DNA of 41,735 nt from a virus. The position numbers and the translations under genes were made by a program. Shown piece by piece: positions 9,855 to 20,799 of the stretch; position 1 is the stretch's first letter; each line of letters begins with the position of its first letter. The notes beneath the pieces were generated by a model, which was given only the letters and a program-made list of their open reading frames with translations, had not been told where the DNA came from and did not search any database. The stretch covers positions 1-41,735 of the IMG/VR virus record IMGVR_UViG_3300045999_007115; one strand, 5' to 3'.

Positions 9855-9885
9855 TTTGCAAATATAATAGGCTTTCTTATATTTG
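9855..9885 (+). promoter_or_regulatory. Divergent overlapping promoters with perfect dyad (operator copy 2)
   Basis: Rightward: TTTG (9855-9858), 19 bases, TATATTTG (9878-9885), matching the Bacteroidetes TTTG/TAnnTTTG spacing, for recT at 9916. Leftward: TATATTTG (9866-9859) for the ribbon-helix-helix operon. The two -7 elements are the arms of a perfect inverted repeat, CAAATATAA, 9 bases, TTATATTTG (9859-9885). The leftward -7 touches the rightward -33, so both promoters can hardly be occupied at once. Confidence 0.8.
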
Positions 9886-12428: not shown

Positions 12429-12446
12429 AAAAACTTTCACCACTAT

Positions 12447-12477
12447 TTGAAAATATAAAAAACCTTATTATATTTGC
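12447..12477 (+). promoter_or_regulatory. Promoter of leader RNA 1, with dyad (operator copy 3)
   Basis: TTTG (12447-12450), 19 bases, TATATTTG (12470-12477): an exact Bacteroidetes promoter. Bases 12451-12477 also form the dyad AAAATATAA, 9 bases, TTATATTTG, differing from the perfect operator by one arm base. Transcription should begin near 12483, at the foot of the first hairpin of the leader RNA. Confidence 0.75.
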
Positions 12478-12481
12478 TAAA

Positions 12482-12572
12482 GCATTTCACAGGGGTAGGA
12501 GCCTCTGAAATGCAGGCTTAAAAAACCTGTTTGCCCCTGGTATACTCCTACATGCCAGGGGCTTATTTTTTT
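12482..12572 (+). ncRNA. Kissing-loop leader RNA, copy 1
   Basis: P1: GCATTTCA (12482-12489) pairs with TGAAATGC (12506-12513); a 1x1 mismatch and 3 inner pairs close the 8-base loop GGTAGGAG (12494-12501). P2: a small AGG/CCT hairpin (12514-12528). P3: an 11-bp stem from 12533 to 12562 with 8-base loop ACTCCTAC (12544-12551), followed by a T-rich tract to 12572. Loop bases 2-8 (GTAGGAG and CTCCTAC) are perfectly complementary. P3 looks like an intrinsic terminator 21 bases before the ParB-like gene, so it may gate that gene. I do not recognise the RNA class. Confidence 0.75.
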
Positions 12573-12593
12573 CATCACTTAAATTTTTCAATC

Positions 12594-13385
12594 ATGACAG
12601 TCACGCAACCAATGGCGCAAGTAGTAGGCCACGTATGCCAGACGATGGATTACAGTCTTTTTAAAACATTGAAAGGCAACCGCACTATTAACCAGGCGCA
12701 CCTGTACCGCCTAACCAAAAGCATAGGGGAGCAATACCTGCTTTCGCCTATCGTGGTGAATGATCGCTTTGAAATCATTGACGGGCAACACCGCTTCAAC
12801 GCTGCAAAGGCCAACAACCTGCCTATTAACTACATCATTGCCCCTGGGTACGGGTTGAAGGAGGTTCAAGTGTTGAACACTAATTCCAGCAACTGGAGGA
12901 ATGAGGACTACCTTAAAGCTTATTGCGATATGGGTTTTGAGCCATACATCAAGTTCAGGAGTTTTATGAAGCGTTGGCCTGATTTCAAGTTTGCCGCTGC
13001 TTTTGCGATTGCATGCCAAAGGAGTTCTTACTCGGTGCCAGGCAGCAACAAGGCATTAAGGAGTGAAACCAACAAAAAAGGCTCTATCCACAAGAATATT
13101 TTTTCAAGTGGCGAACTGACGTTAGCCGATCCCGCAATTATCGAAAAGACGGCCAAGCAAATCACCGACTTCAAACCGTACTACGCAGACTATAACCGGG
13201 TTATTTTCGTACAAGCTATGTTGGGCGTTTTTTCCCTGGAGCAATACGACCATGAGAAAATGATTCAAAAGCTGAAGCTGCAACCAAACGCCATGGTAAA
13301 CTGCGTTTCAATCAAGCAATACCGCCAACTCCTTACCGAAATCTACAACTATCGCAGCCGCGATAAAGTATCGTTAGAATTTTAG
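12594..13385 (+). CDS. ParB/sulfiredoxin-fold nuclease-like protein
   Basis: The 263-residue protein has a ParB-N/Srx-like core at about 50-71 (LSPIVVNDRFEII then DGQHRFNAA, with GQHRF at 64-68), preceded by a helical recognition segment. The remainder is helical and unassigned. Phage proteins of this fold act as nucleases, partition-like DNA binders or regulators; I cannot choose. It is preceded by leader RNA 1 and followed by a terminator, so it is a one-gene transcription unit. The earlier ATG (12531) lies in the leader hairpin. Confidence 0.65.
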   Translation: MTVTQPMAQVVGHVCQTMDYSLFKTLKGNRTINQAHLYRLTKSIGEQYLLSPIVVNDRFEIIDGQHRFNAAKANNLPINYIIAPGYGLKEVQVLNTNSSNWRNEDYLKAYCDMGFEPYIKFRSFMKRWPDFKFAAAFAIACQRSSYSVPGSNKALRSETNKKGSIHKNIFSSGELTLADPAIIEKTAKQITDFKPYYADYNRVIFVQAMLGVFSLEQYDHEKMIQKLKLQPNAMVNCVSIKQYRQLLTEIYNYRSRDKVSLEF

Positions 13386-13406
13386 GGTTTTCATTAGTAA
13401 CTTTTT

Positions 13407-13442
13407 CACCCCCGGCAATGCGTTACTTGTCGGGGGTTTTTT
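13407..13442 (+). terminator. Intrinsic terminator after the ParB-like gene
   Basis: ACCCCCG (13408-13414) pairs with CGGGGGT (13431-13437), extended inward by CAA/TTG, followed by T6. It has an 8-base loop like the leader RNAs, but no complementary partner loop was found upstream. Confidence 0.85.
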
Positions 13443-13472
13443 CTACCTTGACCATCCCGTTGACGCCACCAA

Positions 13473-13547
13473 CATGGTTCTACTAAACCCCGCCCAATTG
13501 TTCACCTTAGAAGAAAAATTACACGTATGCAAAACGAACACGGACTA
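13473..13547 (+). CDS. Possible 24-residue peptide
   Basis: ATG 13473 opens a short frame (MVLLNPAQLFTLEEKLHV...) that overlaps the next gene's start by 21 bases. The spacing and overlap suit a leader peptide or coupled small gene, but it is short and may be chance. Confidence 0.25.
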
Positions 13548-13757
13548 ACGCCACCCATCGCATGGAAAAAAACAGCCTGGAATTGGCAGGCCATTGACGC
13601 CGATGGCAGCGTTTACACCTTCAAAGAAAAGCCAATCCAGGCGGCTGACGGCTGGCAATCGCAGAACCCCGCATTGTGTATGGAGTGGGGGAAAAGGAAA
13701 CCGCCAAAAGATTTTACCAAATGCCTCTGGGAGAGGCCAAAATTCAACAACCAATGA
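13527..13757 (+). CDS. Small protein of unknown function
   Basis: A 76-residue, Trp- and Lys-rich protein (IAWKKTAWNWQAIDADGSVYTF). It ends with a TGATG overlap onto the next gene, which supports real translation. No family recognised. Confidence 0.5.
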   Translation: MQNEHGLTPPIAWKKTAWNWQAIDADGSVYTFKEKPIQAADGWQSQNPALCMEWGKRKPPKDFTKCLWERPKFNNQ

Positions 13758-14053
13758 TGTACCAACTCAACAAATACTCCTTCGCTATCGAAGAAACCCC
13801 CAACGCGCACCCCGTTTCAAAGCACTTCGTAATGATAGGGAAGCACAAGCGGGCTAAGGATAGTTCGTTCACCTACTACGCCGAAACCCTGCAAGAAGCC
13901 CAGGCCAAAGTAGCCGAACTGAAAGCGGACAAAATCAAGGACCTGGAGCGCGCTATCCAATACCACGAAGACCAGGCACTATACAACCGTGGCAGGTTGG
14001 CGGCTATCCTGAAAGAACACCATCCCGACGCCGGGAAGGTGATAAAAGACTAA
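13757..14053 (+). CDS. Small helical protein of unknown function
   Basis: ATG 13757 sits in a TGATG overlap with the previous stop and gives 98 residues. The N-terminal part looks beta (YQLNKYSFAIEETPN); the C-terminal half is a long helix (AETLQEAQAKVAELKADKI) ending with a basic tail. It lies two bases before the methyltransferase gene, in the same operon. Confidence 0.55.
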   Translation: MYQLNKYSFAIEETPNAHPVSKHFVMIGKHKRAKDSSFTYYAETLQEAQAKVAELKADKIKDLERAIQYHEDQALYNRGRLAAILKEHHPDAGKVIKD

Positions 14054-14055
14054 CC

Positions 14056-14832
14056 ATGCTTACACTAACGAATGAGGATTGTATGCAGATGATGGCGCGG
14101 TATCCTGATGGGTATTTCGACCTGTGCATAATTGACCCGCCATACGGTACAATGCACTGCGCTTGGGATGACGCTGCCGACTTGGAAAAGTGGATAGCGG
14201 AAATATACCGCGTCTTAAAGGCAGACGGTACGCTTATCTGTTTCGGCCAGCAGCCTATGTTTAGCCGCGTTGTGGGCATTATGGGGGATAGGTTCAGCCA
14301 CGAACTGATATGGGAGAAAACCATGAAAGGGGGGTTTTTAAACGCTAACCGGATGCCCCTCCGCGAACATGAAAATATAGCCGTGTCGAAGGTGAAAAAG
14401 GCGGTGTACTATAAGCGGAACGATGTATGGAAGGATAATAAAAAAACAGGCCACAAAGTCAGGGTAAACGATAAAGACGTTGACGCAAAGCTATATGGCC
14501 AACAAAAAAACAGGCCAAACTATGTGCATACCGGATACTATGCCCCGGGCAGCATCGTTCGTGTGAGCAATTGGAACGGGGCAATTTTCGGGGATAACTC
14601 TAATGCCTCTATTCATCCAACACAGAAGCCTGTGGAAATATACCGTTGGCTGCTCGCTCACTATGCCCGCCCCGGTGCGCAGGTATTGGATTGCTTCTTA
14701 GGCAGCGCATCCATCGCCATTGCCTGCCACGACTACGGCTATGACTTGACAGGCTGCGAACTTGACCCGGAGTACTTCGCCGCTGCGATGAAAAGGGTAG
14801 AAGCACACACCGCCCAGCAAAAACTTTTCTGA
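14056..14832 (+). CDS. DNA methyltransferase, beta-type (N6-adenine or N4-cytosine)
   Basis: The 258-residue protein has catalytic motif IV DPPYG at 27-31, then a middle region likely holding target recognition. HPTQKP (187-192) and the SAM-binding motif I DCFLGSAS (212-219) follow. The IV-then-I order marks the beta class. No restriction endonuclease lies nearby, so it is an orphan enzyme, probably protecting phage DNA from host restriction or marking it for regulation. Target sequence cannot be read from the protein. Confidence 0.9.
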   Translation: MLTLTNEDCMQMMARYPDGYFDLCIIDPPYGTMHCAWDDAADLEKWIAEIYRVLKADGTLICFGQQPMFSRVVGIMGDRFSHELIWEKTMKGGFLNANRMPLREHENIAVSKVKKAVYYKRNDVWKDNKKTGHKVRVNDKDVDAKLYGQQKNRPNYVHTGYYAPGSIVRVSNWNGAIFGDNSNASIHPTQKPVEIYRWLLAHYARPGAQVLDCFLGSASIAIACHDYGYDLTGCELDPEYFAAAMKRVEAHTAQQKLF

Positions 14833-14859
14833 AAAGTAGCGCGGTATTGGATAGTTTCT

Positions 14860-14867
14860 TATATTTG
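14860..14867 (+). promoter_or_regulatory. Promoter -7 element for leader RNA 2
   Basis: TATATTTG (14860-14867) matches the Bacteroidetes -7 consensus and stands 4 bases before the outer stem of the second leader RNA. No convincing -33 TTTG is present at the usual distance. The right dyad arm is present, but the left arm is not. Confidence 0.6.
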
Positions 14868-14870
14868 TGA

Positions 14871-14959
14871 TGCGATAACGCGAGCCTGCTACCTGGCGTT
14901 ACTGCATGGTGTAATCACCTCAATGGGGCAATGTGTAGCAGCGTTGCCCCTTTTCTTTT
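14871..14959 (+). ncRNA. Kissing-loop leader RNA, copy 2
   Basis: P1: TAACGC (14876-14881) pairs with GCGTTA (14896-14901), extended below by TGC/GCA; a 1x1 G-G mismatch and 2 pairs close the 8-base loop CCTGCTAC (14885-14892). P2: GGTG/CACC (14908-14919). P3: a 9-bp stem from 14925 to 14950 with 8-base loop TGTAGCAG (14934-14941), then a T-rich tract. Loop bases 2-8 (CTGCTAC and GTAGCAG) are perfectly complementary. The layout equals copy 1 while the sequence differs. The next start codon is 11 bases beyond the T-tract. Confidence 0.75.
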
Positions 14960-14970
14960 ATCCTAACATC

Positions 14971-15153
14971 ATGAGCGAGCAATCAAAATACCCTAACGAC
15001 CACAGTTGGGCTACGAATTGGGAACCGAGCAAAAACCGATGCCCCGACTGTGGGGCGCTATTGTGGGAAGCGCCGCAATATGTAGAACCCGACGATGAAG
15101 AAGAGCGCAAAAAATTGTGCTGTGGGGATTGCGGTTTTTCAGATGAAATATAG
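14971..15153 (+). CDS. Small zinc-ribbon protein
   Basis: Starting at ATG 14971, just after leader RNA 2, this encodes 60 residues with two Cys pairs: CPDC (24-27) and CCGDC near the C-terminus, separated by an acidic stretch. This fits a four-Cys zinc ribbon that could bind nucleic acid or protein. Upstream ATG 14923 lies within the leader hairpin. Confidence 0.65.
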   Translation: MSEQSKYPNDHSWATNWEPSKNRCPDCGALLWEAPQYVEPDDEEERKKLCCGDCGFSDEI

Positions 15154-15161
15154 TATCTTTA
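15154..15161 (+). promoter_or_regulatory. Weak promoter element for leader RNA 3
   Basis: TATCTTTA (15154-15161) matches TAnnTTTG except for the last base and lies 5 bases before the P1 stem of leader RNA 3. It overlaps the last codon region of the zinc-ribbon gene. Support is moderate only. Confidence 0.4.
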
Positions 15162-15166
15162 TGAGG

Positions 15167-15260
15167 CATTAGCGCACGCCCACAACCGGGCGCTAATGAA
15201 TGGGATTCTTACCCTAACATGGGGGATAGTGTGTTGTGGCCTATCCCCCTTTTCTTTTTT
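15167..15260 (+). ncRNA. Kissing-loop leader RNA, copy 3
   Basis: P1: CATTAGCGC (15167-15175) pairs with GCGCTAATG (15190-15198); a 1x1 A-G mismatch and 2 pairs close the 8-base loop CCCACAAC (15179-15186). P2: GGG/CCC (15202-15214). P3: a stem from 15221 to 15249 with one bulge and 8-base loop TGTTGTGG (15232-15239), then a T-rich tract to 15260. Loop bases 2-8 (CCACAAC and GTTGTGG) are perfectly complementary. The start codon of the next gene is only 4 bases after the T-tract. Confidence 0.75.
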
Positions 15261-15264
15261 CAGT

Positions 15265-15753
15265 ATGAAACATAAGAAAAAGCAAGTTTTGAAAGCCATT
15301 GTTGACGGTTTCAAGAATGGGCAATTTGATGTTAGTTTTTCTTTTCAAGGTAGGATGGATGCACCTACTATAATCGTTATCGTTGAGCCACAATTTAGCG
15401 GAAACATCGCACAGGCAATACTTGAGGAACGTGAACGCGTTAACGCATCGCTTCGTAAGTATGTCGAAGAAATGCCTACCAAGTCAAAAGGCAGCACTCC
15501 GCTAAGGAACGTGTACCTTATGCGTAACAATGCCACAGGAAAGCATAAGATAGGCCGTTCTAAAACGCCTAAGTACCGAGAGAATACCCTTCAAAGCCAG
15601 GAACCGGATGTTGAACTATTGTTTTCGTGCCATGAATCAATCATAAGTGAAAAGCGATTGCATGAAATGTACGCACACAAGCGAATAAGAGGGGAGTGGT
15701 TCGACCTGGACAAAAAAGACATTTCTAACATTCGTAAACTCATGCAAGCATAG
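15265..15753 (+). CDS. GIY-YIG-superfamily protein (T5orf172/MUG113-like)
   Basis: The 162-residue protein has a C-terminal half like the GIY-YIG nuclease variants found in phages: NVYLMRN (82-88) for the first strand, KIGRSK (95-100) with the key Arg region, SEKRLHEMYAHKR with Glu129, and RGEWFDL (142-148). The N-terminal 75 residues are helical and unassigned. It may be a structure-specific nuclease or a homing-type enzyme. It starts 4 bases after the T-tract of leader RNA 3, so its expression should depend on read-through. Confidence 0.75.
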   Translation: MKHKKKQVLKAIVDGFKNGQFDVSFSFQGRMDAPTIIVIVEPQFSGNIAQAILEERERVNASLRKYVEEMPTKSKGSTPLRNVYLMRNNATGKHKIGRSKTPKYRENTLQSQEPDVELLFSCHESIISEKRLHEMYAHKRIRGEWFDLDKKDISNIRKLMQA

Positions 15754-15757
15754 CCCT

Positions 15758-16702
15758 ATGAAATACACCATCCTAATAGACCAGGTAAAGAGCCTTGAAT
15801 GGGAATTGAGCCTAAGCGAAGCGGCTATGTTCGCGTTCGTTTACAACCTATCCTCATGGGCTGAACCCATTTATGTGAACGGCCAAACATGGTACTTTGG
15901 CAGTCGCAACAAGGCAGTTGAGGAAGTGCCTATTGTTACCGATAAACCGGATACCGTGTACCGCTTGTACAAGTCGCTCCAGGCGAAGGGGCTTATCGAA
16001 TGGCAGAAGTTCGGGGAAAAGGATTGCATAAGGCTTACCGACATTGGTAGGCAATGGAATACGGTTTCTGAAACAACCGACGGAAAAAAATCCGAGCCAA
16101 CTCGGAAAAAAATCCGAGTTAAGACGGAAAAAAATCCGACATATAATAGAACAAAGGATAATAGAACAAATGATAACTCTTCTTTTTCTAACGAAAAAGG
16201 GTTTCCTGAAAATTCAACTGAAAATATAGGCGACGTGGCCGCCGAGTTCGAAGCATTCGGCGAACCCTCCCCGGTAAAAGCCGAAAAGAAAAAAACCCCC
16301 CCCAAGTTGCGCGAAGCCCCCCCCGCCGCGAAGGAGCCGACGGAGACTTACCTCATGTATGAGGCATGGGCGCAATTCGTAGAAAGCAAGGGGATAGCCG
16401 TATCCAAGTCCAAGACGGGCAATTCGTATGTGTTCGCACCGAAAGACGGCGCGGCTATCAAGAAGTGGCGCGAATGGTGCGCCGGGCTACCCAACGCATC
16501 CGGTTCCCTGGATGACTGGCACGTGTTCCTCCAGGCAGCCTGGGAACATGGGGGGAAATGGTATCAGAGCAATTTCACGCCGTGCATCCTGAACAGCAAG
16601 CGGCAGGAGCTGATGGCGGCATTCGCGCAGTACAAGGCGAAGAATGAACCTGATATGTCAATGGTAGGGATGAGCATTGACGAAATTTTGCAAAAATATT
16701 AG
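15758..16702 (+). CDS. Replication initiator or helicase-loader-like protein, winged helix plus DnaD-like C-terminus
   Basis: The 314-residue protein starts with a winged-helix-like region (LSLSEAAMFAFVYNLSSW; SLQAKGLIEWQKFGEKDCIRLT). A low-complexity Lys/Asn/Thr linker (about 105-190) follows, then a C-terminal helical domain (AIKKWREWCAGL; DDWHVFLQAAWEHGGKW). This layout is that of phage replication organisers and lambda O. The linker DNA holds iterons (16081-16139), as in lambda where ori lies within gene O. No helicase or DNA polymerase is encoded, so the phage presumably loads host replication proteins. Confidence 0.65.
   Translation: MKYTILIDQVKSLEWELSLSEAAMFAFVYNLSSWAEPIYVNGQTWYFGSRNKAVEEVPIVTDKPDTVYRLYKSLQAKGLIEWQKFGEKDCIRLTDIGRQWNTVSETTDGKKSEPTRKKIRVKTEKNPTYNRTKDNRTNDNSSFSNEKGFPENSTENIGDVAAEFEAFGEPSPVKAEKKKTPPKLREAPPAAKEPTETYLMYEAWAQFVESKGIAVSKSKTGNSYVFAPKDGAAIKKWREWCAGLPNASGSLDDWHVFLQAAWEHGGKWYQSNFTPCILNSKRQELMAAFAQYKAKNEPDMSMVGMSIDEILQKY
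16081..16139. repeat. Three iterons, candidate replication origin
   Basis: CGGAAAAAAATCCGA occurs three times without error at 16081, 16103 and 16125, an exact 22-bp period. Each copy is itself an inverted repeat (CGGA and TCCG around A6). The copies lie in three different codon phases of the replication gene, so the conservation is in DNA, not protein. An AT-rich tract (16140-16235) follows and could be the unwinding element. Confidence 0.75.
16143..16170. repeat. Tandem ATAATAGAACAAA repeat in the AT-rich tract
   Basis: ATAATAGAACAAA occurs at 16143 and 16158 (15-bp period, in phase with the codons, coding NRTKD/NRTND). It adjoins the iterons and may be part of the melting region, but it could equally be a protein repeat. 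Confidence 0.5.
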
Positions 16703-16732
16703 TGAAAGCTTGCACAGTATAATATAGCATCT

Positions 16733-16740
16733 TATATTTG
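16733..16740 (+). promoter_or_regulatory. Promoter -7 element for the 16762 operon
   Basis: TATATTTG (16733-16740) is an exact -7 match, with TTG (16710-16712) 20 bases upstream in the -33 position. A degenerate dyad left arm (TATAA at 16718-16722) keeps the same spacing as the operators at 8675, 9859 and 12451. It drives the next gene, which starts 21 bases later. Confidence 0.7.
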
Positions 16741-20726: not shown

Positions 20727-20799
20727 TGCGGGGTGGAGCGGTTGGTAGCTTAACGGGCTCATAACCCGGAGGCCGCAGGTTCGAGTCCTGCCCCCGCGA
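20727..20799 (+). tRNA. tRNA-Met (CAT), initiator type
   Basis: All arms fold: acceptor TGCGGGG with CCCCGCG (first pair T1-G72, a wobble), D stem GAGC/GCTT, anticodon loop CTCATAA (20758-20764) and T-arm GCAGG/CCTGC. The three G-C pairs next to the anticodon loop (GGG/CCC), the A11-T24 pair and the weak first pair are features of bacterial initiator tRNA. The sequence is close to E. coli tRNA-fMet as recalled. The 3' end is ACTA, so CCA must be added by an enzyme. Confidence 0.9.

Follow-up and report, generated by a model that had tools for sequence, protein, structure and literature searches.

The window analyzed here is a 41,735-base virus record (IMG/VR record IMGVR_UViG_3300045999_007115), and it carries three related leader elements, at 12482-12572, 14870-14959, and 15167-15259. 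In all three copies a Bacteroidetes-type promoter is followed by a 5' hairpin (P1), by an intrinsic-terminator hairpin (P3) with its U-tract, and by the start codon of a gene. A preliminary description of this DNA had reported this layout from the letters alone, and both sequence and folding bear it out. The small P2 hairpin that the same description counted as part of the shared architecture fared worse: it folds only weakly in copy 1 and most relatives lack it, and we rejected it as a conserved part. The features of the locus are as follows.

12446-12476, plus strand: copy 1 promoter, a -33-like TTTG and the -7 box TATATTTG (12469-12476)
12482-12513, plus strand: copy 1 P1 hairpin, kissing loop bases 12495-12501 GTAGGAG (sequence and folding)
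12514-12528, plus strand: copy 1 P2, a weak small hairpin not conserved in the family (absent from alignment A1, below)
12533-12562, plus strand: copy 1 P3 terminator hairpin, kissing loop bases 12545-12551 CTCCTAC
12563-12572, plus strand: copy 1 U-tract TTATTTTTTT
12594-13385, plus strand: copy 1 gene, ParB_N-like protein of 263 amino acids (weak Pfam ParB_N match below the curated cut-off; homologues)
13408-13437, plus strand: orphan P3 terminator with loop TGCGTTACT (matching P1, loop AGTAACGCA, in the relative L289)
14860-14867, plus strand: copy 2 -7 box TATATTTG
14870-14907, plus strand: copy 2 P1 hairpin, kissing loop bases 14886-14892 CTGCTAC (folding; compensatory changes in orthologues)
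14908-14919, plus strand: copy 2 P2 hairpin GGTGTAATCACC, not a family feature
14925-14950, plus strand: copy 2 P3 terminator hairpin, kissing loop bases 14935-14941 GTAGCAG (folding; orthologues)
14951-14959, plus strand: copy 2 U-tract
14971-15153, plus strand: copy 2 gene, 60-amino-acid protein with paired Cys motifs (no Pfam match)
15154-15161, plus strand: copy 3 -7 box TATCTTTA (the L289 orthologue has TATATTTG)
15167-15198, plus strand: copy 3 P1 hairpin, kissing loop bases 15180-15186 CCACAAC
15202-15214, plus strand: copy 3 P2, a GGG/CCC mini-hairpin, not a family feature
15221-15249, plus strand: copy 3 P3 terminator hairpin, kissing loop bases 15233-15239 GTTGTGG
15250-15259, plus strand: copy 3 U-tract
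15265-15753, plus strand: copy 3 gene, MUG113/T5orf172 (GIY-YIG-like) protein

Each P1 has an 8-nucleotide loop with a 1x1 mismatch close by, and 19 to 23 nucleotides separate it from P3, which is G+C-rich and has an 8-nucleotide loop and a T-tract. Bases 2 to 8 of the two loops are exact complements over 7 nucleotides in all three copies, as had been claimed, and the sequences differ from copy to copy. P1 of copy 1 consists of 8 base pairs, a C.C mismatch, AGG/CCT, and the loop GGTAGGAG; its P3 has 11 base pairs, the loop ACTCCTAC, and TTATTTTTTT. The copy 2 hairpins are built of TAACGC/GCGTTA, G.G, AG/CT, and the loop CCTGCTAC, with an additional outer helix, for P1 and of GGGGCAATG/CGTTGCCCC, the loop TGTAGCAG, and TTTTCTTTT for P3. 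Those of copy 3 are built of 9 base pairs, A.G, CG/CG, and the loop CCCACAAC, and of GGGGGATAG/CTATCCCCC, the loop TGTTGTGG, and TTTTCTTTTT, respectively. The start codon follows after 21 nucleotides in copy 1, 11 in copy 2, and 5 in copy 3. The -7 element that the preliminary description placed before every copy is TATATTTG in copies 1 and 2 and the weaker TATCTTTA in copy 3.

The three copies have minimum free energy z-scores of -3.9, -4.7, and -3.0. Keeping both loops open would cost 0.8 to 2.6 kcal/mol in a two-state estimate that has no tertiary model, against about -9 kcal/mol from a 7-base-pair duplex. We estimate the chance of a 7-nucleotide match between two given loops at ~0.001 or less, and such a match is seen three times. 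A detector that combines a stem, a 1x1 mismatch, a 7- to 9-nucleotide loop, a T-tract, and complementarity gave 8 matches in 669 kb, including all three window copies, versus 2 in one shuffled set. Without the promoter and T-tract constraints it returns many low-scoring chance matches in AT-rich DNA, and we therefore used only matches that were high-scoring or positionally defined. Two more TTTG/TATATTTG promoters resembling that of copy 1 lie at 9855-9885 (of which 9859-9885 looks divergent) and 16710-16740; detector scans found no element at either, and the leader is thus not present on every promoter of the window.

Two virus contigs, L288 and L289, have replication genes strongly similar to those of the window and carry elements at matching sites. 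The loops at the copy 2 site read CTGCTAC/GTAGCAG in the window, CTGCGAC/GTCGCAG in L288, and CTTCCAC/GTGGAAG in L289, which are compensatory changes in orthologues; at the copy 3 site CCACAAC/GTTGTGG is common to the window and L289, on stems that differ. The genes behind the elements vary among these relatives and encode ParB-like, ParB-methyltransferase, helicase-like, 60-amino-acid, MUG113, and replication proteins. A P1 with loop AGTAACGCA precedes a P3 with loop TGCGTTACT in L289, and the window retains only this P3 (13408-13437), in front of which stands the cassette of the copy 1 element and the ParB-like gene. The orphan terminator looks like a relic of cassette insertion, and on all these comparisons the unit of leader and gene looks like an exchangeable cassette.

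Family counts beyond these relatives were drawn from two seed genes (ParB-like and DUF6291) and one pattern. Homologues of the ParB-like gene in viral contigs led to loci in which the element lies directly 3' of the ParB gene and 5' of a replication gene that we take to be DUF6291-like. An alignment of 37 leaders (A1), partly picked by the detector and hence on loop complementarity, has an invariant TA--TTTG box, a P1 with a bulge below a 7-nucleotide loop, and a 19-base-pair P3 that ends in GGGC-T7 and is followed by ATG. Under an explicit structure that includes the loop-loop helix, 91.8% of all cells in A1 are paired, and for the loop-loop helix itself the figure is 97.3%, with double changes at 7 of 7 pairs. 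The kissing helix contains 50 double-change cells compared with 10.9 in shuffles, a count that none of 500 shuffles reached, and sliding the kissing register lowers pairing to 66% or less.

Because members of A1 were partly chosen on complementarity, we ran two tests free of that bias. One used a DNA pattern made up solely of the box, GTTAAC...GTTAA, and CCC, which matched 104 viral contigs; the loops were complementary in 60 of 60 complete distinct elements (at least 7 nucleotides in 56 and 6 nucleotides in 4), which carry 17 loop sequences, and in a chimera control at least 6 nucleotides were reached in 21 of 274 combinations and at least 7 in 6 of 274. The other considered distinct DUF6291 upstream regions with a box and a T-tract and found complementary loops in 36 of 36, counting four with two-letter loops that a low-complexity filter scored as missing and that are complementary by eye. 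Homologues with compensating loop changes, which the preliminary description had named as a check on its proposal, therefore exist both at the copy 2 site of close relatives and across the wide family.

The complementary run is exactly 7 nucleotides in 50 of the 60 pattern elements, mostly loop-sized. Since these runs stop at the loop borders, we read them as a kissing helix and rejected a long alternative P1-P3 helix. The abundance of G-U pairs in P3 across A1 identifies the plus-strand RNA as the conserved entity; a DNA cruciform or protein site was likewise rejected, as these pairs and the strand-specific U-tract favor RNA. Spacing is also regular: in most of the family the -7 box lies 24 to 26 nucleotides upstream of the P1 kissing loop, T-tract and box keep constant positions, and the AUG follows the T-run immediately in 29 of 61 pattern elements and after 3 to 7 nucleotides in 28. 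Nearly all members have the sequence of an intrinsic terminator, a GCCC/GGGC-type stem base and then T7. Unrelated genes stand behind the same leader among both pattern elements and relatives, which makes the element a general leader module. By inspection, A1 has no conserved ATG-initiated open reading frame between box and U-tract, and we rejected ribosome-mediated or peptide-leader attenuation on that ground; nor does A1 hold a standout invariant motif, as a metabolite riboswitch would, outside the promoter, the paired columns, and the U-tract.

The family extends to cultured phages. A covariance model drawn from other phages (A1, with the loop-loop pairs left out) recovers copy 1 of the window (12469-12572) at E=0.0075, finds elements in the phages lillamy, tooticki, hemulen, elemo, and Harreka_1, and gives a weaker match in Cellulophaga phage phi19:3. 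We recognize the architecture in the Flavobacterium phages lillamy, tooticki, elemo, and 11b and in the Olleya phage Harreka_1; in lillamy9-1 the element lies at NC_048835.1 14098-14211. Complementary loops are GTGAGACG in lillamy, TGAGAGC/GCTCTCA in elemo, and CTCTCACAA/TTGTGAGAG in phi19:3; the detector adds CGGGCAGG/CCTGCCCG in 11b, which the covariance model missed. The site of ParB in lillamy is taken up by an HNH endonuclease gene in the Flavobacterium phages tooticki and hemulen (L170 3601-3685 versus L163 7899-7959), and the tooticki gene is headed by an element where lillamy has only a 60-nucleotide gap. For the metagenomic contigs, we infer hosts at the genus level from two guides, the Bacteroidetes-type promoter and these cultured relatives.

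The claim that no known RNA class has this layout holds against Rfam 15 and limited literature searches. Rfam 15 gave no match to the element in the window at the gathering threshold or at E<=1 (only a tRNA at 20727) and none in six homologous loci (one chance microRNA match elsewhere, E=0.58), and the covariance model of C4 antisense RNA (RF01695) matched neither the window nor those loci. A limited literature search for kissing terminators or Bacteroidetes phage RNAs found no description of the element, which is weak evidence. A search of 84,980 cellular genomes with the sequence pattern of the Flavobacterium main subtype gave no exact match; a search of bacterial genomes for ParB homologues gave 3 loci, none with an element by the rule of box plus 7 nucleotides; and no MUG113 relatives were found in viral contigs.

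A few observations stand beside the main family. A divergent variant (L019 1652-1772 and G001:13700-13828) has a short P1 (CGG-TTYRAACG-CCG), loops that pair over 6 nucleotides plus a G-U, and a P3 that seems to hold an additional inner hairpin. Large terminator-like structures (ACGCTCC...GGAGCGT) without the P1/P3 layout lie immediately upstream of DUF6291 in L125 and L139 and possibly represent another type of leader before the replication gene. In the window, a 22-nucleotide unit (CGGAAAAAAATCCGA...) occurs three times in tandem at 16081-16146, within the open reading frame of the replication protein.

At the level of sequence, the analysis establishes the promoter box, P1, P3, the U-tract, and the position of the AUG, set before a variety of genes, and covariation establishes the loop-loop pairing and gives the structure strong support. 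Its own promoter, its own terminator, and an adjacent AUG give the element the anatomy of an attenuator, and it is probably, in our judgment, a cis-acting transcription-attenuator leader that serves as an interchangeable module before individual genes of Bacteroidetes phages; among the three readings that the preliminary description offered, a regulated terminator fits best. We infer termination in vivo, the direction in which the kissing helix acts, a translational block, and any trans factor along the following lines. RNA polymerase would start at the TAnnTTTG promoter, a few nucleotides 5' of P1, which would fold first and expose its 7- to 8-nucleotide loop; P3 would emerge ~25 to 50 nucleotides later, and its apical loop would pair with the P1 loop over 7 base pairs, tethering both hairpins. 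P3 and the U-tract would end most transcripts as leader RNAs of ~90 nucleotides, and because there is no room for another promoter, the gene would be expressed through P3 read-through. In the read-through transcripts P3 would stand directly 5' of the start codon, which would probably be masked, and would hinder ribosome entry. The tertiary lock would set the read-through fraction and give a signal its entry point for opening or closing expression, the simplest such signal being a structure-reading, sequence-blind RNA-binding protein.

Several results weigh against a terminator governed by its kissing loop. P3 does not depend on the kissing helix for its stability; termination may therefore not need the kiss, and the contact more likely tunes or gates termination than enables it. 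We found no antiterminator conformation competing with P3 and identified neither a ligand site nor a shared regulator gene. The copy 1 element of L288 is the one clear exception to loop complementarity: its P1 loop GTAGGAG is kept, but pairing with the P3 loop TTCC-GT-TAC requires a 2-nucleotide bulge. More tentatively, and as a possibility that we rate short of probable, the elements may make up a class of phage regulatory RNA not described before, one where a 5' hairpin controls an intrinsic terminator by forming a kissing helix with it inside the same molecule. The loop code of such a class would be sequence-free, so that several insulated copies could exist in one phage, and the portable leader would put unrelated genes under shared regulation, with a sequence-blind factor or RNA polymerase itself as the reader.

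The same loops could act in trans, if those of terminated leaders kissed the nascent leaders of other phage genomes and changed their termination, thereby controlling copy number or superinfection; different loops per phage would keep the circuits separate, as in plasmid antisense systems and the P4/P1 immunity RNAs. Related phages do have different loops before the same gene, and viruses with several copies (the window, L289, G002, and L016) have a different loop in each, every P1 matching its own P3 best (6 to 9 base pairs, versus 2 to 6 for cross pairs). Drift, however, also predicts different loops in one phage, and intramolecular pairing is favored at these distances. We looked for diversifying selection on the loops and saw no sign of it; double-change cells in A1 amount to ~20% for kissing pairs and 24 to 25% for neighboring stem pairs, and kissing pairs that evolve no faster than stems favor a structural role in cis over an immunity code acting in trans. 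A scan by consensus alone found no antisense promoter over the elements, and the minus-strand sites near copy 1 read away. We regard control in trans as unlikely. A further proposal, that the loop-loop helix is a platform for a Rop-like phage or host protein, which would read 7-base-pair kissing complexes regardless of their sequence and cause antitermination or termination, would suit the fixed length and complementarity and the variable sequence of the loops in the 37 leaders, as well as a leader common to many unrelated genes. We identified no candidate protein, and the idea elaborates the attenuator rather than opposing it; we consider it quite unlikely.

The two remaining suggestions of the preliminary description fit the anatomy less well. 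A promoter and a terminator of its own do bound an RNA of ~90 nucleotides, which could be a stand-alone small RNA, such as a decoy or a host-targeting RNA, with the downstream gene merely a neighbor. Against this, the AUG lies a near-constant 0 to 7 nucleotides past the U-tract before several unrelated gene families, with no space for a second promoter, which argues that the leader controls the gene and renders an independent RNA improbable. A processive antitermination RNA like HK022 put, which would modify RNA polymerase to pass downstream terminators, would accord with a compact two-hairpin RNA at the extreme 5' end of a phage transcript; P3, however, carries its own U-tract and is the only terminator identified between promoter and gene, and there is little conserved sequence outside the promoter, the pairs, and the U-tract. 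That suggestion is unsupported, and we deem it highly improbable.

The elements appear to form an unrecognized structured RNA family present across many Bacteroidetes phages, cultured ones included, and the covariation of its tertiary contact is unusually clear. If termination is gated, the element would be a natural attenuator with a programmable loop-loop contact as its control point; it would account for the way in which phages bring new genes under regulated expression and would offer ready-made insulated RNA switches for the Bacteroidetes, which are short of regulatory parts.

Known systems share parts of this design. HK022 put is likewise a 5' two-hairpin RNA of a phage transcript, but its sequence is conserved and it is not known to have kissing loops or a built-in terminator, whereas the element here has an integral one. 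The ColE1 RNA I/RNA II kissing complexes bound by Rop have fully complementary 7-nucleotide loops; they belong to an intermolecular plasmid antisense system, and no Rop-like protein was identified here. In the IncB/IncI-type repZ leaders, long-range loop pairing forms a pseudoknot just 5' of the start codon of a replication gene. That pseudoknot activates translation, in contrast to a hairpin-hairpin kiss with a terminator that heads many non-replication genes too. C4 antisense RNA and the P4 CI immunity RNA are temperate-phage RNAs with a regulator and its complement in the same transcript, and they act in trans in lysogens and are not known to work through a terminator-loop kiss; the element, for its part, has no Rfam match, and its main subtype is absent from the cellular genomes searched. 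Weinberg et al. 2010 (PMC2864571) list C4 RNA. Closest among working analogues is the pT181-type attenuator (PMC3753616), in which an intrinsic terminator is governed by a kissing interaction involving the loop of a 5' leader hairpin, an internal loop lies near the kissing loop and was reported necessary in functional loop-loop chimeras, and orthogonal loop variants can be made. In that system the partner loop belongs to an antisense RNA of its own, transcribed from the opposite strand, for which our consensus promoter scan gave no indication; the kissing-loop pairing described here is linked to an intrinsic terminator as well, but it is intramolecular, with both loops in one transcript and one of them the terminator's own.

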